In this document: in pieces, positions 23,656 to 35,760 of the stretch
How positions within the stretch are numbered: position 1 is the stretch's first letter
How the letters are laid out: the number at the start of each line of letters is the position of its first letter
From: Prorocentrum cordatum
Lineage: Eukaryota > Sar > Dinophyceae > Prorocentrales > Prorocentraceae
Direction of reading: 5' to 3'
Assembly (NCBI GenBank): GCA_963575745.1
Contig: CAUYUJ010000182.1
Location: 50,001 to 114,000, forward strand
DNA length: 64,000 nucleotides
Notes under the pieces: generated by a model
What the model was told of the DNA's origin: nothing
Database searches by the model: none
The model's input: the letters and a program-made list of their open reading frames with translations, nothing else
Made by a program: the position numbers and the translations under genes

Positions 23656-25975
23656 TCTTGACCTGCGAAGTCGTTACTTGCATCTTAGCAGCGCGCGCGA
23701 AGCCCTGCAAGAACGTCACGTCGCCTTGGGCTAAGATTGAACAGCCACGCCCACTGCAATGACGCCTGGGCTACCAAGCGCCGGCTACGTTGAACGGGGC
23801 TTGGGCTATTCTAGAACTGCACGCGCAAAGGGCTGCGCCGTTTCGACATGTTCTTGATCGGCGCATGGACTGCGGCGGTGGCAGCAGTAGGCCATGGGGG
23901 GAGAGTGGTACGTCCGCCCTGAGCGGATGCTGTGGTATTCTGAAACTCAGAAGACGACGGCCTGACCCATCTTGCGCTAGCATGGGCGACTCGCGCGCTG
24001 CGCCGCAGGCAAAGACGGGCTGCCGGCCGCCGAGAGAGCAGCTGCTTTTATTCATCTGCGCTTGGTCAATTCTTGAGCTGTGATGCGCGCTCACAAATCA
24101 CCCTGTGCTACACGTGAGACAGAACGTGTACACTGCGCTTAGATGCCGACGCGCCGTGGCATGACCATCTGGTATGATACGCCCGCGCTACAAGCCCAAA
24201 TCATCATGGCCAATCATTGTGCCACTTTGGGGTTCGGGGCGGCAAGCACTTGTTCGGTTCCGACTGAGAGCAAGGCAACATGCCGCGGCGACTTAGCGTC
24301 GCGTAGCCATGCGCTCCAGCAAATTAGCGCTCCGTGGCACGGGCACGAGGTGCGCGCAGGCTCGTCTCTGCCATCGCTGGGCTATGGCGGGCCAAGTGCA
24401 TAGCCGCGCACGGCTTTCCCTGGGCGGCGATTGGTTTGCGCGATCGATTGCCCAAGCCACCTCGAAGCATTGATGAAGTACTGCTGTTCTGGCCCCGAGA
24501 GCGGGCCATGCTTGCCCGACAGCAGCATTCCCCACATTGCCGCGCTGCTGCGCTGAGGTTGGGGCTGCGAAGTCCTTAGGCCTAGGCCCTGCAGAAATGC
24601 AAACGACACGCGTCGAGTCCTACGCGCATGGCCACGCGAATCGCAAAGCCGTTCTGGACCTCACTTGGGCCAGACACCGACAGCGTTGAGCTGCGGGCGC
24701 AGGGGTGCCTGGCCCAAGTTTGCTGCTCCCATCGCATGCTCAGTCGTGCGGAGGAACAGCAAATTATCATTGAGTTTCGCCAGACGCATGTCGGCGATGC
24801 CCCGACGACGTCGCCTTGCGTGTTGTTCCTACTACAGTGGGTCGTCAGCGTTGTCTTCTTGGGCGAAGCCAGCGACAAGGCCTGTGCTTCCAGTGTTTGT
24901 CGACCTGGTTTTGCGGACGTTCGGGGTGCCCGATTCGCCACGTCGCGTGACCATCAGCATGCGCGACCGAAAAGGGTCGCGGCGCAGTTTACAGCGTCCA
25001 GCGATGGCCACATTCATTCGCTTCAGCGCAGCCCGCGCGAATCCACGACGTGACGCGCAATGCAGCGCGCGAGCAAGAGTACCTAGCTTTGCTTAAGCCA
25101 AGGCTAACATATCGTGCCGTAAACAGAAAGCTGTACAAACAAGTTAGCGGTATGCGCTTAACCAAATATGCGCTCTCACAATAAAGGCCACTTGCTGCAC
25201 GGACGCGCGTCGCACTTACAGGCGCCACGCGTATGGCGCATTCGAGGCACAGCGCAGCGCCAGTATACATTGCAGTGCATACAGCACGCGCGCTGGGCAT
25301 GAGCACACACCAACGAATATCACTGGCTGGCGAGACCCCCCCAACGGGCCTCTGCAAGGGTTCTGGGGCTCTCAAAGTTCACGTGGTTGCAAATCACATG
25401 TTGCTGTCGCTTGTCGGCGCTGCGCTACGTGTTATGTTTTCTCGAGGATGCATGCGCCAACGTTTCGCAATGATGGGGGTAGATTGTCTAAGCGTGTTGT
25501 TTCTGAGGGCTCTCGCAGTTGGTCTCTTTCAAGAAAGCCCTAAGGCGGCGCGTCCGCACTCTGACTTGGTTGCTCGAATGTAAAGAACACAAGCGGTTTC
25601 ACGCCGACTTCTCGCGACCACGGCGTTCGAGGCCGCGGCGCCACATCTGAAGACCCGATGCGGCGTTGAGGCCCCGACCGCCGCGTTGTCCGGGACGGAC
25701 GACGTGAAACCGCGAAAAAAGTGGTCAGTCGGTACCAGGGCGTTGTTGTTTTTTGTTTTCTCGTGGCCTATTGGGGTCCCTCGGGGCCTATCCCAAAAAC
25801 TGTTCGGCGGGAATCTCTGTCGTGCTGGGGGCTTGTTGTTTGGAAAGGCCGCAAGTTCCCCCCAGGGCTCAAGCGGACGGAAACCAATGAAATGTCCAGC
25901 GGCATGGCCGTCATTATGACCGCACGATCCGTGAGAGCAACATTTGGATTTCGAATTCTCCATTCGCTTCCGTAT
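23656..25975. other. No gene recognised between satellite and next gene
   Basis: Unique, moderately GC-rich DNA with short frames on both strands (up to about 150 codons). None has a recognisable motif and none is preceded by the hairpins seen at 30-33 kb. Coding cannot be excluded for a small spliced gene. Confidence 0.4.
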
Positions 25976-25995
25976 CGTAGCCATTATGATTCAGG
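25976..25995 (+). other. Possible relict of the dinoflagellate spliced leader
   Basis: CGTAGCCATTATGATTCAGG matches 16 of 20 positions of the 3' part of the dinoflagellate spliced leader as I remember it (CGTAGCCATTTTGGCTCAAG). It lies 77 bases before the ATG of the next gene and is preceded by a second partial match, TTCCGTA. Genes that re-entered the genome as cDNA of trans-spliced mRNAs keep such relicts. Chance similarity cannot be excluded. Confidence 0.4.
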
Positions 25996-26071
25996 GTTGT
26001 TTTCTCGACGCACCTTGCGGCCCAGGGTGAGGTGCGCGTCTCTTCACTTAACGGAGCGCCCCTCAGCAACC

Positions 26072-28693
26072 ATGTCCGTCTCTGGAGACGACGTTGACGC
26101 AGCGGAGATGCGGCCTCCTACAGCCCCGCCAGTGGCTCGCAGGAGGAGTTCTGCCAGCGATCATGCTGCTCACACCAAGGCCGAGTTCGCAGGCGCATGC
26201 TACTTCTGCCAGGAGCCGTTGCGCCCTAAGGACAACACCAAGACATGGCACGGCTACGTCTTCCACGCTAGCCCGTGCTGGAACAACATTCGGGCTCGCC
26301 AGCGCGTCTGCTATACCACCCAGAACGGCCTCAGGCGCGAGCTCGAGTTGATGAACGGCGATCCTGAGAAGTGGCGCTGCGAGGCGATGCAGTTCGATCG
26401 GCCTCACTTGGATAGCAACCGATTGCATGCGCGCGAAGCTCTGACGAAGCAGCTTGCAGACTACGTGCTCGAGCTGCAGCGCATGGCTGAGCTGACCTTG
26501 ACTGACACCGCGAAGTACACCAAGGCACAGTACAAGAAGGCGAAGTTGAGGGGCATGGATTCGGACGAGGCGAGCGCCGACTGGGACAGTGAGTACGCAG
26601 AGCACCCGACGGTCAACAAGAAGGGCGAGACGTGCATTGCCATTGAGGGCCCCGAGGTGACCAGGAAGTTGGAGGGGACGGAGCGCCAGGGCGTGAAGCG
26701 AGGTCTGATCGAGTCGGCGCCTGGAACCTCCTCTTGGAGCTCAGGGGCGGCGTCTTCTGGTGGCGATGGGGCTAGTCCAGCTTCGGGGCGAACTGGCGGG
26801 AAGAGCGGCGCCAGCCTGACGGAGATGAACATCCAGCGCCTCACGGATGCATTCAATGAGATTAGAGAGGATGACGTTATCTCAGTGGTGAGCACGCGCG
26901 CTCGCGGTTCACGCGGCGCCCGCTTGGCGCCGCAGCTGCAGCCGTCGCAGGGCTTCCTGAAACAGAAGGATGACATCGGCACCACGCTTCGGGAGATCGT
27001 CTCAAGCATCGACGGCAGCAAGAAGGAGATCGGCGCGATCAAGAAGCTCCAGGCGCTGCACACCAAGGCCGTGGAGAAGAACATTGGGGTGGGGGGTCTA
27101 CCTCATGACGTCAGCACGGTGATCGGCGACCTCTCTCGCGTGAGCTCGTTGGCCAAAGGCGAGCTCGAGAAGATCGGCCCCGCCAAGGTGGATGCAGTTC
27201 CATCTCTCGAGGAGGCGCTAACGAACATCCAGAAGCAGAAGTCCACGTGCCTCGAGCAGGTGCAAACTCTCACGGATCAGTTGAATTTCAAGTTCCAGAA
27301 GGCTTGCTCTGAGCAGAGGTCCGAATACCAGAAGAACCGCTGGGAGAAGACGAAGATCCAACATATGCTCAGCAAAGGAGGCTTTGGCCTGAACTTGTCC
27401 AAGTGGGCGTCGGAGCAGATCCACAGCACGGATAGCTTTAGTGGCGCCAGCACGGATGGCATGATCTGTTTGTGTGAGAAGGCGCAGCTCAACCCCGAGG
27501 ACGGTTCCTTCGACGTGGCCAAGCTGGCTCTCTTCACGGGCGAGAGCCCCAACGAAGACTGCCAGTCGCATAGTGTGTGGTGGGGCATGAAGTTGCTGCT
27601 GGACGATGCCGCGAAGGTCTTCATCGACAGCAAGATCACCAGCATGAAGGCTGAGATGGCCAACCACCCGCTGTGGCCAGGTGCGATGGGGGGGGTGTCA
27701 GATTGCTTCGCAAACGTCGACGCGGTCGCCACCTTGGGCGCGCAGAGCACCAAGGAGAAGGGCTCGGAGTGCTGGCTCGTGTGTGCGAGAGCTGGCGTCT
27801 ATCGCATTGGTCCTCAGAGCGTGCCCATGCCAGGCACGCCATCGATCCTTGTCGCCATGGACAAGCCGCTCTTGGTCCACGCCGTGCGCATGAAGGACTT
27901 CTTGGGCCAGGGCATCGCCGTGAACAACTACGAGCAGTTCCTCGCGACAGCGACGGGAGCAGACATCATCAAGCAGTCAACGTTGGTGATCGTCAACCCA
28001 GGGGACAGCTTGTACGTTCCCACGGCGTGGTGGTGGTCCTTGACGGTGATCGCGGGGCTCCGCGACACGGTTGCATCAGACGAGTCGAGGGCGAAGGGGC
28101 CACCGAAGGCGAAGGCGAAGGCTTCCGCCACGGCTCCAGCTCCAGGTCAGGACACGGTCGGCATGGCCACGGTGGTGCCAGTCTACTCCCCGTCGCTTTG
28201 GGGCGCCGCCCAGAGCAATGAGCAGGGGGCGATCGTCGCTTTGAACAAGGCCCACTTCGACACGAAGAAGTGTCGTGCGATGTGGGATGAGCGTGCCGCG
28301 GCATTCGGACAAGTGTTTGCCACCTCGTCGGTGAGATGGAGCTTCGAACCTAACAAGGCCCATGGCTGCGCGCTCTGGGTCAACGCATGGCAGTCCCAGC
28401 TGGTGGCACGGACATTGATGCGAGGCCCTTGCAAGCTCAGGGTGGAGTGTTTCATCAGACATGGGCGCCCGAGATCCCTTCATCAGGGCGATCGCCGTGG
28501 CATTTCATTCATTGCCTCCCCCACCTCATCATGCCAATGTGTTGTTGCATATGTGGAGCTTCGCTCTATGCACCCTGATGTTTATAATACCTGGAGCTTC
28601 GCTCTCTGCACCCTGATGTTTACTATTCCCAGAGCTTCGCTCTCAGCACGCCTGGTGTTAAGTATATCTGGGCATTCGCTCTGTAAAGCTTGA
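26072..28693 (+). CDS. Zinc-finger/coiled-coil protein of unknown function (873 aa)
   Basis: A single uninterrupted frame. I choose the ATG at 26072, since the frame upstream (from 25721) has no protein-like character and holds the possible leader relict. Residues 43-69 carry C43-x2-C46-x13-H60-x4-H65-x3-C69 (CYFC, WHGYVFH), a likely zinc-binding site. The next part is charged. Residues about 300-430 hold heptad-like helices (SIDGSKKEIGAIKKLQ, EEALTNIQKQKS) compatible with a coiled coil. A globular C-terminal part follows, ending near SSVRWSFEPNKAHGCALWVN. From about codon 800 the frame runs through a hairpin repeat and is probably not true protein, so the native C-terminus may lie earlier. 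I recall similar multicopy dinoflagellate proteins but know no function. It lies inside the 23-bp inverted repeats. Confidence 0.7.
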   Translation: MSVSGDDVDAAEMRPPTAPPVARRRSSASDHAAHTKAEFAGACYFCQEPLRPKDNTKTWHGYVFHASPCWNNIRARQRVCYTTQNGLRRELELMNGDPEKWRCEAMQFDRPHLDSNRLHAREALTKQLADYVLELQRMAELTLTDTAKYTKAQYKKAKLRGMDSDEASADWDSEYAEHPTVNKKGETCIAIEGPEVTRKLEGTERQGVKRGLIESAPGTSSWSSGAASSGGDGASPASGRTGGKSGASLTEMNIQRLTDAFNEIREDDVISVVSTRARGSRGARLAPQLQPSQGFLKQKDDIGTTLREIVSSIDGSKKEIGAIKKLQALHTKAVEKNIGVGGLPHDVSTVIGDLSRVSSLAKGELEKIGPAKVDAVPSLEEALTNIQKQKSTCLEQVQTLTDQLNFKFQKACSEQRSEYQKNRWEKTKIQHMLSKGGFGLNLSKWASEQIHSTDSFSGASTDGMICLCEKAQLNPEDGSFDVAKLALFTGESPNEDCQSHSVWWGMKLLLDDAAKVFIDSKITSMKAEMANHPLWPGAMGGVSDCFANVDAVATLGAQSTKEKGSECWLVCARAGVYRIGPQSVPMPGTPSILVAMDKPLLVHAVRMKDFLGQGIAVNNYEQFLATATGADIIKQSTLVIVNPGDSLYVPTAWWWSLTVIAGLRDTVASDESRAKGPPKAKAKASATAPAPGQDTVGMATVVPVYSPSLWGAAQSNEQGAIVALNKAHFDTKKCRAMWDERAAAFGQVFATSSVRWSFEPNKAHGCALWVNAWQSQLVARTLMRGPCKLRVECFIRHGRPRSLHQGDRRGISFIASPTSSCQCVVAYVELRSMHPDVYNTWSFALCTLMFTIPRASLSARLVLSISGHSLCKA
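28556..28642 (+). repeat. Tandem triloop hairpins at the gene's 3' end
   Basis: GAGCTTCGCTC (stem GAGC/GCTC, loop TTC) occurs at 28556-28566, 28594-28604 and 28632-28642, exactly 38 bases apart, with a degenerate fourth copy (GGCATTCGCTC) near 28671. TGCACCCTGATGTTTA follows the first two. The layout, a small triloop hairpin repeated every ~40 bases, mirrors the arrays before the three genes at 30-33 kb. Confidence 0.75.
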
Positions 28694-29720: not shown

Positions 29721-29721
29721 T

Positions 29722-29900
29722 CCGTGATAACAGGTTTGCCAGAAACATGGTTGCCCGAAAACGGGTTTGCCAGATAACAGGGTTCACCACTCATCACATT
29801 TTCCGAAATACCGACGTGCAGATGACACATGTGCCAGATAGTATGTATCCCGTAATAACAGATTCGTCATATAACAGATTTGCCAGATAATTGATGATAG
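29722..29900 (+). repeat. 16-bp tandem motif array, cluster 2
   Basis: Units such as ATAACAGGTTTGCCAG, AAACATGGTTGCCCGA, ATGACACATGTGCCAG and ATAACAGATTTGCCAG follow at 14-17 base steps. The motif points the same way as in cluster 1, so the array itself is direct even though the adjoining 23-mer is inverted. Confidence 0.8.
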
Positions 29901-29996
29901 ATTGACGCGCGTACAATTGCAAAACATGTTTAGATGGGTTGCCTTGTATATGATTGCCGTTGGCTCAATCTTGTATTCGTGAGATCTTACTGACGT

Positions 29997-30098
29997 GGCT
30001 CAGCTTTGCTGGCCTGTTCACTTTCCGCGTCTTGGCGTGGCTCAGCTTTGCTGGCCTGTCCACTATCAGTAACTATAGGACCAGCTTTGCTGTCCTAT
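29997..30098 (+). promoter_or_regulatory. Triloop hairpin array before the nuclease gene (3 copies)
   Basis: Hairpins at 29997-30014 (GGCTCAGCTTTGCTGGCC), 30039-30056 (identical) and 30078-30095 (GGACCAGCTTTGCTGTCC). Each folds as three outer pairs, one bulged base on the 5' side, four inner pairs and a TTT loop. The third copy changes the outer pairs from GGC/GCC to GGA/TCC, keeping pairing. It extends to ATAGGA/TCCTAT (30075-30098) and ends 16 bases before the ATG at 30115. Confidence 0.8.
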
Positions 30099-30114
30099 CG
30101 TCTCGTTGTCATCA

Positions 30115-31318
30115 ATGGCCGCTCCTGTCTCTCGCCAGATCCTGGTGTGTTTCAACCACTTGCTGCCCGACATCGCGGCGCGCGGTGTGCCGCTGGAGAG
30201 GCTCGGCTTCAAGCCTGGCGACTGGGGCAGCGGAGTCGCCTCGGCTGTCGCCGTCGACGCGTGGGACTTGGCCGCGCCGCTGGAATACGGATTCAGAGCG
30301 ACCGATCGCTGCGCCAAGGTCCTTTCCGTGGCGGTGGCGGCGTTGAGTCGCCCAGTTCAGTGGCCGACCATGAATGCCATCGCCCAGCCGCAGTTGGGCC
30401 GCCGAACCGTTAAGAGCTGTCCCCGGTGGGCGCAGTCGTGCGCGTGCGCAGTGCCCGCCGGGGGGGGGGCGCGAACAGTGACCGCGCTATCCAGCCAGCC
30501 CCGTCGCTCGAGCTTGGCGGTCGTCCTGAGCGACGAGAACGCTGCGGGCCGCGCCGGAGGCTGCTCTCCTGCACGAGTTTCTTGTGTCGCACGGTGCCTG
30601 CGACGCCGAGATCTGCGCCGAGGTGAAGGCCACTGCGAGAGCGGCTCCCCGCCTGGCATGCCTGATGGAGAGTTTATCCCTCTCGGATCCGGAGATCGTA
30701 GAGAAATGACGCCTGAACAAGGAAGAGGCGGCTAGGCGGGGCACCTGGATGCACTGGACGTTCGAGGCCCACCTCAACCGCGTTCCGGTACCCCGCGACG
30801 CCGTGGAGTTCCAGTTATTCCTGAAATACTTGGGCGCGCTGAGAGGTCTGACGGCTTTCCGCGCAGAGTGGGCCATATTCGCCGGGCACGAGGGGCTTGC
30901 TGGGTCAATCGATTTCGTGGCTCGAGACTCCGCGGGCAGCTTGTACATATACGATTGGAAGCGGGCGAAGAATTTACGTTCAAAGTACACGAACCCGTTG
31001 CAGAATATGAAGTTTCCATTGAGCCGATGGCCAGACTGCCAGGGAAACTATTACCGGGTGCAGCTCAACATTTACAGGTGGATGCTGGAACGTTACTACG
31101 GCGCCCGCGTGGCTGCGATGCATGTGGTCTGCCTGCATCCGGACAACGGCGACCAGCCATTCGTGGACGACGTGCCGGTGATCCCAGAGATCGAGGAGCC
31201 CATGGCCATTCAACGCACGAGGTCCCGAGAGTTGCGAGCCATGGCATCGGAAGACGCTAGCGAGATGGACCCTCTGGGCGGCTGGCCGCGGCCAGTCGTA
31301 GCGGCGCGCTTGCCTTAA
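30115..31318 (+). pseudogene. PD-(D/E)XK (RecB/Cas4-like) nuclease gene, frameshifted
   Basis: The N-terminal part starts at the ATG at 30115 (MAAPVSRQILVCFNHLL) and reads in one frame to about 30400. The conserved remainder (ALLHEFLVSHGACDAEI onward) is in another frame from about 30545, with a TGA at 30707-30709 just before GTWMHWTFEAHLNR. The nuclease core is clear: GSIDFV with Asp codon 30911, YDWKRAK with Asp 30953 and Lys 30959 (the D...D-x-K triad), and QLNIYRWMLE with Gln 31061 and Tyr 31073, the helix motif typical of RecB, AddB and Cas4 nucleases. Such enzymes cut DNA with Mg2+. I recall close multicopy relatives in dinoflagellates. A poly-G run near 30461-30470 may be the frameshift site. 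This copy is unlikely to make a full protein unless assembly errors explain the breaks. Confidence 0.75.
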
Positions 31319-31680
31319 TGCGTGCGCACCGCGGCCAATTTCGATCGTGCGTTTCGCCGGCCCGCAGTGGAGGTCGCGCCCTGGCGAGGCCGTTGCGATT
31401 GCGCGCCGCCTTCATGAGGTGCCGTTGCAGCGGCGCTCAAGCTCTGCGGAAGTAGTGGTGCGCTAACGCAAGATAGAAAACAGTATTTGGTTGTTCGGAT
31501 AAATGCGTTTGCCAGATAACATTTTCGCGACGTAACAGGTTTTCCAGATAATGCGAATTTCAGCAGAGGCCTGTGTCACAAGTAGTACCAGCACGGGTAT
31601 ATGCTGCCGTCGTCGTCGCAGTAGTACTCAGCACAGAGCAAACCGTAGCTGTTTTTCTCTCAAGGACCATCGCTTTGGCG
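31319..31680. repeat. Spacer with 16-bp motif cluster 3
   Basis: At 31499-31560 four 16-base units (for example GTAACAGGTTTTCCAG) repeat the motif seen at 10.5 and 29.7 kb. The remainder is unassigned. Confidence 0.65.
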
Positions 31681-31681
31681 T

Positions 31682-31774
31682 GGCTCGGCTTTGCCGGCCT
31701 GTCATTTAACTATCTGCATCGCTAGCCCTTGCCGGCCTGCTGCGCTGCCTCGTGGAGGATCGGCATTGCTGTCC
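31682..31774 (+). promoter_or_regulatory. Triloop hairpin array before the zinc-knuckle gene
   Basis: Hairpins at 31682-31699 (GGCTCGGCTTTGCCGGCC) and 31757-31774 (GGATCGGCATTGCTGTCC), with a half-decayed copy near 31722-31741 (CCTTGCCGGCCTGC). Relative to the array at 30 kb, the inner stem has changed from CAGC/GCTG to CGGC/GCCG on both sides. The last hairpin ends 26 bases before the ATG at 31801. Confidence 0.8.
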
Positions 31775-31800
31775 TGTGAGTTGTCCTGCACTTTGGCGCA

Positions 31801-32595
31801 ATGGCCACCGACGCGCAGCGCGCTGCCGGCCCCCCGTTTCTGAGCTCGCAGTCCCCTGAGCTGAGCGACCCCACGCCGCGCGGGAGGCCTCGCCAGCGGC
31901 GCGCTTACTCTGGCGCCCGCTCGCTGACGCCGGCGCGCAAGAAGCATCGACTGTCCTCGCGGGCTGCGCGCGCGGCTGCAGCGCGAACCCCTTCATCGTC
32001 GCCGGAGAGAGACGACGCCGCTGACATCGAGGCTTTCGCGCTGATGGTATCAAGGGTCTCAGATGAAACATTAAATTCTATCATGTCATGCTTCCCTGCC
32101 GTGCGGAGACGGACATTAGCGCGTCGTTTCGCACGGGATCAACAGATTCGCCAAGACAGAACGTTTATACTCGTGAGGCCGGTCGGTTCGAGCAGGCCGC
32201 GGGCCTCGCGTGGCCCGCGCGGCGCCGGAGTGCCCGGAGCCCTTGCTGTTGTGCCTCGCTGGTTTCAGCCTGCCAACGCAGAACTTGCCTCGGCGACAGC
32301 CCCGAGCCTAGTACACGATCGCTGTTTCATTTGCGGGTTGGATGACGGCGACGTCGACGGCATCGGCCACTATCTGGAGGGGTGCGTGGCCACGGTGAGA
32401 TCATTTCCGTTCCCAAATGTTACCCTTTTGCGCGCGACGACCTCCGCGCGGGCCATGTTGGCGCAGCGGTTGGAACCTCGCGGCGACGCATTCGCGTGCG
32501 CGCGGTGCAGCGGGGTCTGCGTCGCCTGGGAAGACACCCTGAACATAGATCTCGCTTCCGATATGCTCGGACTGCACAGGCGACAAGCGGTTTGA
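31801..32595 (+). CDS. Zinc-knuckle protein of unknown function (264 aa)
   Basis: The frame is intact from the ATG at 31801, whose context CAATGGCC equals that of the ATG at 30115. The first ~80 residues are basic and rich in Ser, Pro and Arg (RPRQRRAYSG, PARKKHRLSSRAARAAAA), compatible with a disordered nuclear-targeting region. Residues 175-195 read C175-x2-C178-x11-H190-x4-C195 (CFICGLDD, HYLEGC), a CCHC-type zinc site that recalls the zinc-binding tail of some non-LTR retrotransposon proteins. A second pair, CARCSGVC, follows. Its place between a nuclease and a transposase-like gene, with the same 5' hairpins, suggests a DNA-binding accessory protein. This is inference. Confidence 0.6.
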   Translation: MATDAQRAAGPPFLSSQSPELSDPTPRGRPRQRRAYSGARSLTPARKKHRLSSRAARAAAARTPSSSPERDDAADIEAFALMVSRVSDETLNSIMSCFPAVRRRTLARRFARDQQIRQDRTFILVRPVGSSRPRASRGPRGAGVPGALAVVPRWFQPANAELASATAPSLVHDRCFICGLDDGDVDGIGHYLEGCVATVRSFPFPNVTLLRATTSARAMLAQRLEPRGDAFACARCSGVCVAWEDTLNIDLASDMLGLHRRQAV

Positions 32596-32906
32596 AAACA
32601 GGGGCGCGAGCCGACTCGCGCCCGCGATTGGACTCGGGGAGACGCGGCGGCGCCGGCGCCATTGCGCGGGCCCCCGTCGAGCTCGGGCCGCGATTTTCGA
32701 TCGCCACTTTGCGCCGACAAAAGCGCAACATCTCCATCATATCTAGATTCTCTTCCCGCCTTCCCATGTGTCAAACGTGGCGTGGGGCTTTCAAGTCGCT
32801 CGATATCCCCACTAGTCGAGCTCTTACACGTTCGACGTCAGTGCCACTGATGGATCGTTGCTTATCTCTCCTCATCGCTCTCCGGCTCAAGACACGCGTT
32901 TCCCGT

Positions 32907-32968
32907 GGGTCGGCTTTGCTGCCCTGTGCTTTCTTTGTCGTGCCACCTGTGGGTCGGCTTTGCCGCCC
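32907..32968 (+). promoter_or_regulatory. Triloop hairpin array before the transposase-like gene
   Basis: Hairpins at 32907-32924 (GGGTCGGCTTTGCTGCCC) and 32951-32968 (GGGTCGGCTTTGCCGCCC), 44 bases apart. The outer pairs are now GGG/CCC, a third compensated variant. The first uses a G-T pair in the inner stem, the second restores G-C. The second ends 36 bases before the ATG at 33005. Both are followed by TGT, as in most other copies. Confidence 0.82.
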
Positions 32969-33004
32969 TGTTTTTTGTTCTACCACCTCCCCGCACTATC
33001 TCAC

Positions 33005-35251
33005 ATGCGCGGCGCACTCGCTCAGCAGGGGCAGGACGCTGCAAGGCTCGCGCCGGCGCCGACTCGGAGACGGATCAGAGGCAAGAGCGCGGCGGACGAC
33101 GTCGGCGAGAGCTGGGTGTGCCTCGCGGCCGAGCAGCGCGAGCCCCACGAGCTCGCGGACGTGGGCTCGGCGGAGACACCTGAATCCCCGAGCGGCGATG
33201 AGGGTGAGACAGTGGTGCGGACAGAGTTGTTCGACTGCCTGGAAAATGAAGTCAAGAGCTACTCTGCAGGGGTGAAGCTCCTGCGCCCCAAGCGGGACAG
33301 CGAGGGCGTGCAGTTGAAATTTGCTTGCGGTTTATGTCCGTTCCGGTCGTTCTCGACGCAGGTACTCCTGGCCGCGCACGTCTCGAAGTACCACCTCAGA
33401 AAGACGCGCTTCGTGGCCTCTGGCACGAAGCAGTTCAATGTCGTGTGCGCGTTGTTCGACAACGACCGGCTTCTGCGAGCTCCAACGGGGAACCTTCTGA
33501 GGCGGTCTGCAGCGGTCCTGCGGGAGACAGTATCTCCTGCCGTTCATCGCGGACAGAATGCCATTGACAAGGATATTGTCCTAGTTCTCGACGACGACGG
33601 GCCCTCGTATCAGAACAAGGCAGCGGTGGGGCAGAATCTCGCGTGCAGACGAGCGGGGTACACGTGCTATACCCGTGGCTTCGCCGATATCCTGTTGCAG
33701 GAGTCCTTGCGCCACCATGGGCGCGCGCGCCCGGCGATGCTGCGGGCGTGCGCTCGCGTCGCGGAGCAGGGCTCCGAGTTGAGCAGCATGCTGCCGACCG
33801 CCGTTGAGCACTGGCTAGAACTTATGGAAGACGTGTTCAACTGCGCGCACGTAGAGAGGCGCAGCGCTGCGTTGATGGAAGAATGCCACCGACGCAAGGA
33901 ATTCCTCCACATCTCCATGGACGCCACTATCCGCATTCTGCGCAACGTCAAGGGCCAGGCAGACTATCGGTCTGCACAAGCAGTGCGCGATGCTGCACCC
34001 GTGCCAGACGTGGACGCCAAGTGCCGCGTTCTGACTCTCGCGGGCCGGACGGGGGCGGCGCTCGGCGTTTTTTTGACGAAGGACGAGGGGGCTGATGAAA
34101 TAGCTGGAGCCCTTGCAGCTCGTTGGTCGGCGGCGTGCAGATCGCAGACGGCGTCCGTCGCCAGTGACCAGCCGAGCAGCGCGCTACTCCGTGTCTTGCG
34201 AGGTTCATGTTTTCCCAATTTATCGGTCTTGAGCCTCGACCCTGTTCATCTGCCCATCACGTACGAGGAGACGCACTGGAGGAAAAAGACAGTGGGATCG
34301 CGATTATTGCGGATACTAGTGGCCAAATTTACGAAGGTGGATTGCACGCTGCCCGCGCACTACTGGGGGGCGCCGTTCGACGGGACGAACGCCCCGAACC
34401 TGCAGCCAATAGAGGAGCGCGCGCGAGCACAGATACTCGATCATTCACTGGTGAAGTCGCGAGCTCAATACGTTATCGACAACGTGAACGCCGAGCTGCC
34501 ATGGAAAACGACGCACGAGTTCATCGAAGCTATCGCCGCGCTGAGCGCATTGGTTCCAGAAGAGCTTGCTCGCCGCACTCGCGTGAATAACGTTCAACTC
34601 AAGAGATTGCTTTACAATGCGACCGCCCCAGCCCGCATGCAATGGTTCTTCAATAATCAGCGATTCAGGCATTCCTTGCCGGCGGCGCGCTCAGCCCTGT
34701 TGGGGTCTGGCACGTCCGTCAACAAACCCTTCGACCACGAAATCAACGCGTGGTTTCGCAACCAGGGAGACTTCTACGCTTCGACGGCGGAGCTGCAACT
34801 TAGGATTGGCTTCTTGGGCAAGCTGCAAGCCCACAATTGCGCGCTGTATTCGCCGACGCTGCGGCAGCTGCGACAGGCCAACGTGCTATCGCGAAGCATT
34901 ATGGCATGGGCTTTCCCCGTGGATGATTGGAAGAGTTACTGTGCGCTCCTGGAGCAGCGCGGCGCCGACGTCCTGGCGCCCGCGCGGCTTCCGCTCCGCG
35001 AAGCCCGACAGAGAGTCGCACGGCTGATTGCCGAACGCGCCGCGTGCGCTCGGGGAAAGCCAGCGGCGCGCGAGGCCGGGACTGCCGGGCGGCGCGGTGC
35101 TCAGAAGAAACCCGCTGCAAGGGCGCTCTTGGACAGTCTGCGCGATCGCAGAGTGCCTAGGATCAAGAGAACAGCTTTCACTTTGAAACGCAAGCCCGCG
35201 TCGCGCGGCGCTGCTGGCGAAGCCCCCGCCGCGCGCGCTCGCCAGCGGTAG
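33005..35251 (+). CDS. DDE-transposase-like protein with C2H2 finger (748 aa)
   Basis: I place the start at the ATG at 33005, since the in-frame sequence upstream (from 32858) is the hairpin leader. Residues 108-130 form a C2H2 finger (CGLCPFRSF...HVSKYH). The central region has the pattern of an RNase-H-fold transposase: SMDAT with D306 in a strand-like segment, a second acidic strand LSLDPVHL with D412, then YEETHWRKK and a later Glu-rich helix near residue 470 (LQPIEERARAQ) that could supply the third acidic residue. RVLTLAGRTGAALGVF fits the beta-strand after the first Asp. The C-terminal ~70 residues are very basic (RRGAQKKPAARA, RIKRTAFTLKRKPAS), apt for nuclear import or DNA binding. 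The frame has no break, unlike its neighbours. I recall multicopy dinoflagellate relatives but cannot assign a named superfamily. Confidence 0.65.
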   Translation: MRGALAQQGQDAARLAPAPTRRRIRGKSAADDVGESWVCLAAEQREPHELADVGSAETPESPSGDEGETVVRTELFDCLENEVKSYSAGVKLLRPKRDSEGVQLKFACGLCPFRSFSTQVLLAAHVSKYHLRKTRFVASGTKQFNVVCALFDNDRLLRAPTGNLLRRSAAVLRETVSPAVHRGQNAIDKDIVLVLDDDGPSYQNKAAVGQNLACRRAGYTCYTRGFADILLQESLRHHGRARPAMLRACARVAEQGSELSSMLPTAVEHWLELMEDVFNCAHVERRSAALMEECHRRKEFLHISMDATIRILRNVKGQADYRSAQAVRDAAPVPDVDAKCRVLTLAGRTGAALGVFLTKDEGADEIAGALAARWSAACRSQTASVASDQPSSALLRVLRGSCFPNLSVLSLDPVHLPITYEETHWRKKTVGSRLLRILVAKFTKVDCTLPAHYWGAPFDGTNAPNLQPIEERARAQILDHSLVKSRAQYVIDNVNAELPWKTTHEFIEAIAALSALVPEELARRTRVNNVQLKRLLYNATAPARMQWFFNNQRFRHSLPAARSALLGSGTSVNKPFDHEINAWFRNQGDFYASTAELQLRIGFLGKLQAHNCALYSPTLRQLRQANVLSRSIMAWAFPVDDWKSYCALLEQRGADVLAPARLPLREARQRVARLIAERAACARGKPAAREAGTAGRRGAQKKPAARALLDSLRDRRVPRIKRTAFTLKRKPASRGAAGEAPAARARQR

Positions 35252-35760
35252 CAGATGCCGATTTTTATCTATTCGTCGGCGCTCAAAGTTTCCATTCCGT
35301 GCCCTTCCTCTCCCTATGCGCACTTTCTCTGAGTCGGTCTCGGGGTCATGTCTTCGGTAGAGTCTCAAGACCTTACATCCATGGGCGCCTGAAGCATAGC
35401 ATAACAGAAGGGATAAGGGTAGTGATGGAGTGAAAATACGGAAAGAGAGGGGACGCACATTATACCACAATCGTCCCCTTACATATATATATATATACCC
35501 GTATCTATCGTCAAAGAATGGCAGTGCACGGCCGTATCTATTCGTATTGCATTTTGTCAGAACGGATGTTGTTGGCTGTGCTCTCGGAGCGAACAAGATC
35601 CATGATATTGGTCGACGCAATGAGGAATGGGATGGGGAGAGTGGGAAGCAGTATCGATGAGGAGCGAAGAGACGAGTGACAACGACAAAACGACGAGGAG
35701 TAGGTTGGATAAGAACGACGAAACGAGATTTCAAACAGAACCGGGTAGGAACAGGGATTC
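35252..35760. other. No gene recognised
   Basis: A short (TA)n tract lies at about 35480-35495, and CCGTATCTA words begin here and recur at 36100-36320. No inverse copy of the cassette's 5' end was found by eye. Confidence 0.4.

Follow-up and report, generated by a model that had tools for sequence, protein, structure and literature searches.

Bulged hairpin arrays, very probably acting as RNA, in the gene leaders of a dinoflagellate mobile element that encodes an SLBP-like candidate reader

Why should seven copies of one small hairpin stand in front of three consecutive start codons in a dinoflagellate genome, and what might read them? The question is raised by a 64-kb stretch of Prorocentrum cordatum DNA (assembly GCA_963575745.1, contig CAUYUJ010000182.1, positions 50,001-114,000 of the forward strand), referred to below as the window, in which an earlier note had described these hairpins and their compensatory base changes. 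Our answer is that they very probably form RNA hairpin arrays in the leaders of a mobile element with six genes (A to F), and that they are quite possibly, with a chance somewhat short of even, read by the element's own SLBP-like protein, the product of gene C. Beyond what the note had seen, the three open reading frames behind the hairpins belong to one mobile element, the window copy of that element is deleted, and the element encodes the SLBP-like protein. We met no earlier account of such hairpin arrays in the open-access literature.

All seven 18-mers that had been reported are present in the window, all on the plus strand; they are named here for the gene that each array precedes.

29997..30014, plus strand: hairpin A-h1, GGC.CAGC/GCTG.GCC
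30039..30056, plus strand: hairpin A-h2, identical in sequence to A-h1
30078..30095, plus strand: hairpin A-h3, GGA.CAGC/GCTG.TCC, with a bulged C instead of T
31682..31699, plus strand: hairpin E-h1, GGC.CGGC/GCCG.GCC
31720..31737, plus strand: decayed middle copy, four of seven pairs kept
31757..31774, plus strand: hairpin E-h2, GGA.CGGC/GCTG.TCC, one G.U
32907..32924, plus strand: hairpin F-h1, GGG.CGGC/GCTG.CCC, one G.U
32951..32968, plus strand: hairpin F-h2, GGG.CGGC/GCCG.CCC

Five of the seven contain Watson-Crick pairs only; in those at 31757 and 32907, pair 6:14 alone is a G.T (G.U in RNA). Scanning the window for the strict fold recovers five hairpins on the plus strand and none on the minus strand, against an expectation of 0.04 per window from 50 Markov simulations. 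The degenerate IUPAC pattern matches exactly the seven hairpins when no mismatch is allowed; with up to three mismatches it yields 17 matches against 16.97 by chance, and hence only the exact form is informative. Look-alikes on the reverse strand at 2-3 mismatches stem from the near-palindromic sequence. Within the arrays, starts are 42, 39, 75 and 44 nucleotides apart, and the decayed middle copy postulated for the second array is indeed found there. The gap from the end of the last hairpin to the ATG, previously put at 16-36 nucleotides, measures 19, 26 and 36, so that the upper figure stands and the lower one does not. The flanks are shared much as described, with GTGG on the 5' side of five hairpins and TGT on the 3' side of six. 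A-h3 is missing from the only A leader of the same type that was aligned (L025).

The pairing was examined without selecting for it, by anchoring a search on the loop and 3' arm only, which gave 63 distinct contexts, of which leaders account for 53. All seven pairs, with G.U allowed, are present in 51 of the 53 leader contexts, which comprise 18 distinct 18-mers; the two exceptions are the decayed copy at 31720 and one hairpin in L028, with six pairs. The 10 matches outside leaders form between one and five of the seven pairs. In a set of 24 hairpins picked for variety (21 distinct), the covariation score is 0.383, compared with 0.167 after shuffling and at most 0.163 in slid controls, and 96.6% of cells are complementary versus 85.9% when shuffled. 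The compensatory change claimed by the earlier note is borne out at two positions: among the 21 distinct sequences, pair 3:16 is CG in 10, GC in 6 and AU in 5, and pair 6:14 is GC in 13, AU in 6 and GU in 2.

Stem columns are 96-100% identical in alignments of five leader classes and spacers 80-89%, for hairpins located by a loose pattern requiring at least six pairs, which leans towards kept ones. Full pairing in the leaders, covariation and stem conservation together favour RNA over duplex DNA. Folded singly, five of six hairpins adopt exactly the proposed structure, and GGACCAGC... moves the bulge by one. The loop is mostly TTT, ATT or CTT, the bulge is mostly T and lies on the 5' side, and 20 of the 21 distinct element hairpins retain G-C as their second pair.

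Across the 4.13-Gb genome, the exact IUPAC motif occurs 377 times (228 + 149), whereas the reversed control occurs 78 times (41 + 37). We grouped the 100 of these 377 places that were listed into clusters, defined as lying on the same strand within 25 kb, and all figures for clustered and single places refer to the matches listed: 75 are clustered on nine contigs and 25 are single. The free outer pair is complementary in 75/75 clustered places and in 11/25 single ones, and the bulge is T in 74/75 and 6/25, respectively. The clusters are real, and the majority of single places resemble chance matches. For one copy type, GGGTCGGCYTTGCCGCCCTGG, the genome search gave 23 places (control, 0), and the enrichment near open reading frame starts, whose absence would have counted against the note's reading, is seen for this type: by comparison with gene C starts by hand, 21 of the 23 lie exactly 52 nucleotides upstream and two about so, by extrapolation. 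Taken from the other side, 28 gene C places could be matched from residue 1, a lower bound as the search scores best candidates only, and all 28 have hairpins, 21 by the exact GGGTCGGCYTTGCCGCCCTGG pattern and seven, with two copies each, on reading. Of these 14 further hairpins, 11 are fully paired, one has a G.U and two are without the second pair; none shows a new compensatory change.

Two database proteins, P0017 (jgi) and P0008 (ena), have N-terminal extensions that, on our reading, agree with hairpins in translation, such as VDQHCCPV for GTGGATCAGCATTGCTGTCCTGT, which would speak for arrays beyond this assembly. In IMG/VR, the hairpin-plus-TGT pattern was found in 9 viral-contig stretches, with one match each.

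Where do the arrays sit relative to the messages? For all six gene types (A to F), at least one copy has an array of two to four hairpins in its leader. In the copies read, exact hairpins are on the sense strand, usually 11-67 nucleotides upstream of the ATG, a gap that widens to 243-277 nucleotides, up to the next ATG, in three broken copies. Among the roles proposed in the earlier note, that of an element of the 5' untranslated region is the best supported. Just upstream of the arrays, the window carries sequences resembling the dinoflagellate spliced leader (DinoSL), which a passage of PMC12014239 gives as DCCGTAGCCATTTTGGCTCAAG.

29962..29969, plus strand: GGCTCAAT, matching 7/8 of the DinoSL 3' end (GGCTCAAG), 27 nucleotides before the first hairpin
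31643..31664, plus strand: degenerate full-length DinoSL-like sequence CCGTAGCTGTTTTTCTCTCAAG, 17 nucleotides before the gene E array
32884..32891, plus strand: GGCTCAAG, the exact DinoSL 3' end, 15 nucleotides before the first hairpin

The sequence CCGTAGCTGTTTTTCTCTCAAG is the best DinoSL match in the window (64 kb, both strands). At least 7/8 of GGCTCAAG is found within 60 nucleotides upstream of 18 of 24 distinct arrays, and the distance from its end to the first hairpin is 14-27 nucleotides in 17 of these 18 and 7 nucleotides in one. Spliced-leader relics in dinoflagellate DNA mark genes that passed through mRNA, according to a section of PMC12014239. If the leader is added at or near the spliced-leader-like site, at which the mature mRNA would then start, the arrays would begin no more than a few dozen nucleotides from the cap.

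The candidate reader is encoded by gene C. Residues 45-74 of its product match the Pfam model SLBP_RNA_bind (PF15247) with an E value of 1.6e-4, and four more copies do so at 1e-4 to 5e-4. Elsewhere in the genome, four places exceed the Pfam cut-off for SLBP. An hhalign comparison of the element domains with an SLBP-type profile (three SLBP-type sequences from the same genome plus 30-residue human and fly segments) gave 96.7% and a score of 54.1 over 59 columns at 34% identity; in 200 column shuffles the score was at most 17.1, and 0/200 reached 54.1. Gene C shares the motif TPDP...VSKR-x-[WF]...W with the genes on C1670 and C20270. Its Arg61, Trp63 and Trp70 align with Arg, Trp and Trp of human 4l8r and with Arg, Phe and Trp of fly 4tux. 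Homology of the gene C domain to the SLBP RNA-binding domain is thus suggested weakly by the single-protein matches alone and strongly by the comparison with the SLBP-type genes of the same genome. In histone messages, G7 is the second G of the stem. Arg61 aligns with Arg181 of human SLBP, and the contact of Arg181 to G7 is the sole base-specific one described in the relevant passage of PMC10388802. A sequence search of the Protein Data Bank (PDB) with gene C, with E values up to 10, returned three chance-level rows only. Among other SLBP-type genes are two identical 316-residue frames (L040 and L041, C13309:371273-371467 and C15736:69161-69355), in which the stretch before the domain resembles, by eye, an RNA 2'-phosphotransferase (KptA/Tpt1).

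We examined 20 stretches from seven contigs, which together with the window contig cover eight of the nine cluster contigs (all but C803). The clusters in the seven contigs are parts of a multi-copy mobile element with six genes, some 20 kb or more in length (family 1). Gene A encodes 1393 residues, a paralogue of which matches AAA/ResIII helicase models; genes B, C and D encode 1460, 248 and 603 residues, D being a PD-(D/E)XK nuclease whose window part matches Pfam PF12705 (E 1.2e-5) and whose intact relative P0023 matches the phrog_298 exonuclease (4.6e-19). On C4565, C and D are continuous in a single frame, where D was not found to have an array of its own. Tandem units of ~20.4 kb with varying gene content are present on C667 (C667:40001-110000). 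On C5572 (8001-60000), hairpin clusters occur in both orientations, as in an inverted pair.

In DDE/D transposons with a D(2)H motif, the catalytic residues are D, D, D(2)H and E in an RNase H fold. Across 11 aligned gene F proteins, D306 is nearly invariant and D388 and D412-P-V-H415 are invariant, and together with its C2H2-type finger this makes F transposase-like by motif only. A Foldseek search with F gave no match at E 0.001, and its AlphaFold model, with a predicted local distance difference test (pLDDT) score of 54.5, provided no usable fold. No relatives of F were found in IMG/VR, and PDB sequence searches at E 0.1 returned nothing for F, B or A. Four database proteins (P0012-P0015) carry gene F relatives fused to a preceding part that by eye looks like the end of gene B, and therefore element genes appear to be fused and split differently between families. 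Pfam scans of the genes tested detected no DNA polymerase or capsid. The presumed element ends share no inverted match of 10 nucleotides or more; at the presumed 3' end, a TA-rich run comes after a conserved motif. The length of this TA-rich microsatellite after the 3' motif (window 35455-35497) differs in each copy compared, which is unusual for a DNA transposon.

The SLBP-type domain also occurs in related families. A region 47% identical to gene C was found at 15 places assigned to family 2, 10 of them within an open frame of 2396 residues, and their almost equal scores suggest recent spread. The family 2 polyprotein matches PF15247 over profile positions 5-64 of 70 (E 6.1e-5, 23.4 bits, below the cut-off of 27). 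In the part of the frame that was read, the domain has a D5_N helicase domain as its neighbour, and there is also a part like gene F (27% identity, E 2e-13). The frame (L042, C330:45001-55000, and other places) further includes a region resembling a cysteine protease by eye. Gene B of family 1 cannot be aligned with the D5_N polyprotein (BLASTP E 0.64), and hence the view of B as a superfamily 3 helicase is a reading of motifs only.

The window copy is, as its alignments read, an internally deleted remnant in which the start of gene A is joined to the end of gene D near 30538-30569. By blastn, 29956-30569 matches gene A of C4565, 30538-31427 matches gene D copies, and 31757-35392 matches genes E-F. 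Because of this junction, the window copy lacks B, C and the first part of D. Of the three consecutive genes that had been proposed, the third stands as an open reading frame of 748 residues and the first is a fusion remnant with a frame break rather than an intact gene.

29956..35497, plus strand: element remnant (family 1), A (5' part) fused to D (3' part), then E, F and the 3' motif
30115..30735, plus strand: open frame starting as gene A (helicase-like), broken by deletion or frame change near 30460-30570
30749..31318, plus strand: 3' part of gene D, PD-(D/E)XK nuclease, Pfam PF12705
31801..32595, plus strand: gene E, 264 residues, without assigned function
33005..35251, plus strand: gene F, 748 residues, ATG at 33005, C2H2-type finger and transposase-like motif
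35455..35478, plus strand: conserved 3' terminal motif GCACATTATACCACAATCGTCCCC, then a TA-rich run to about 35497

Repeated units resembling GTTTGCCAGATAACA by eye lie at 29721-29890 and 31480-31560, upstream of the A and E leaders, and sequence similar to the 29721-29890 stretch occurs in L022, L024 and L026. Further upstream of the remnant, 25721-28693 is an open frame of 990 residues with no firm Pfam match.

How does this arrangement compare with known systems? The histone stem-loop (Histone3) has a 6-bp stem and a 4-nucleotide loop and stands at the 3' end of histone mRNA. The element hairpin resembles this shape in its short GC-rich stem, GG/CC base and pyrimidine-rich loop, and the histone system is matched by an SLBP-type domain with the equivalent of Arg181 kept, encoded here by the same element. 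Unlike histone stem-loops, the element hairpins lie in 5' leaders, in arrays of 2-4, and the genes are not histones. Dinoflagellate histone mRNAs are reported, in a passage of PMC6723414, to be without a 3' stem-loop; stem-loop terms are absent from PMC4751559. Leader control by iron regulatory proteins (IRPs) uses the iron-responsive element, a hairpin with a CAGUGN apical loop and a C bulge. The likeness is one of principle only, namely a cap-proximal bulged hairpin that would let a protein block translation; the element hairpins have another loop and stem, with three loop nucleotides, and come in arrays, and no IRP was seen. Polinton-type or D5-helicase-type elements share the nuclease, a helicase-like protein, D5_N (in family 2) and a transposase-like protein (F), but here there was no polymerase or capsid match, no inverted repeat of the length sought, and the hairpin arrays are an addition. 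Retrogenes tagged by DinoSL, as described in part of PMC12014239, likewise have spliced-leader-like sequence in the DNA just before the leader, whereas the element has it before most gene types and beside hairpin arrays.

Together, these features could be accounted for as follows. Addition of the spliced leader would yield element mRNAs that begin with the leader, continue with 2-4 bulged triloop hairpins and reach the start codon shortly after. The gene C protein would bind the cap-proximal hairpins of element messages and, once bound, would gate ribosome entry or mRNA fate for all of them together, its own included. The outcome would be a self-limiting regulon. That the element captured an SLBP-type domain along with its own hairpin code, such that one factor switches the gene set and limits copy number, is a scenario that we put forward tentatively and hold to be less probable than the binding itself.

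Several observations weigh against this reading. The double changes are confined to two of the seven pairs, the other five showing none, and the counts of double-change pairs and of pair types are not above those of shuffles (481 and 468 of 500). As the copies are closely related and the hairpins were picked for variety, independent events are few, and the covariation is to be taken as support, not as proof. When the whole F leader of the window is folded, F-h1 falls outside the minimum-energy structure (z 0.09); the A leader has a z of -2.96, with copies that cross-pair. The second-pair G is lost in two gene C leader hairpins and in one hairpin of L028. Among the 24 arrays, the spliced-leader end is weak in six, at 6/8 in three and 5/8 in three (one A type).

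The case for gene C as reader has its own difficulties. Its single-protein Pfam scores, 20.4-22.7 bits in five copies, lie below the curated cut-off of 27, and its AlphaFold model has a pLDDT of 33.3, with no usable fold. No hairpin of the family 1 type was found near the open reading frame start of L042, nor 0.9-1.4 kb before the domain in L043-L046, stretches that may not reach the frame starts. As the hairpin was not found in what was read of these five loci of families 2 and 3, domain and hairpin may not go together, and the domain may predate the arrays or be more widespread than they are; family 2 keeps these genes as one polyprotein, and one could speculate that the arrays arose where the genes separated. 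At the gathering threshold, Rfam has no match in the whole window, and Histone3 has none up to E 10 in 29950-33010; the element hairpin also departs from the histone stem-loop in its 7 bp, its bulge and its 3-nucleotide loop. Taken with these differences, the system may represent hairpin-protein control of a new variety.

The leader hairpins might instead be read by a host protein, for instance another SLBP-type protein, so that the element borrows host control. Such proteins are available, as two of the four places above the Pfam cut-off carry the TPDP..SKR motif, and their ligand is not fixed, given the reported lack of the histone 3' stem-loop (in that passage of PMC6723414). We nevertheless hold this to be unlikely, because the exact motif outside clusters looks like chance among the matches listed, and because the element encodes an SLBP-type domain of its own. 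We judge about equally improbable a role as RNA-processing signals that mark message 5' ends and aid trans-splicing or cleavage. The element genes are co-oriented, the arrays stand just 3' of spliced-leader-like sequence, and dinoflagellate polycistronic transcripts are thought to be resolved by spliced-leader trans-splicing, as stated in a passage of PMC10666404. Yet the mRNA would retain the hairpins, which are located 3' of the presumed acceptor, and host genes, which are trans-spliced too, would be expected to share a motif that is at chance outside clusters among the matches listed.

A signal at the level of DNA seems more doubtful still, be it a promoter element or a hairpin, in a cruciform or a single strand, that a transposase, nuclease or replication protein would recognise. 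The element does have a PD-(D/E)XK nuclease and the transposase-like F, and the hairpins could form in single strands; against this stand the sense-strand orientation, the 5' bulge, the preferred loops and the single G.T steps in the copies read, and the arrays lie inside the element before its genes, away from the presumed ends, which disfavours the transposase recognition hairpin of the earlier note. Least probable of all, by a small step, is a leader cassette without present function that has spread between genes by copying and has multiplied with the element. In several copies the leaders of B, D and E are near-identical cassettes, and many copies are recent duplicates, but stems exceed spacers in conservation in each of the five leader classes aligned, and two pairs covary. 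Some candidates were dropped: a transposase end-binding site, as the arrays are internal; a double-stranded palindrome for a dimer, as bulge and loop are directional and the exact matches have the sense orientation in the copies read; and a polycistron 3'-end signal of the upstream gene, as the distance from the arrays to the next ATG is maintained.

SLBP-type domains are familiar from their role in histone messages. The element family offers candidate non-histone RNA ligands and a candidate reader in one compact unit. If the element's own gene C protein does read the leader arrays, the SLBP family would have a regulon beyond the histones, in dinoflagellates, which reportedly do without the histone stem-loop. 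Such control would also show a multi-gene mobile element coordinating its genes in a host thought to be reliant on post-transcriptional control. The hairpin itself provides a searchable mark for the element family.

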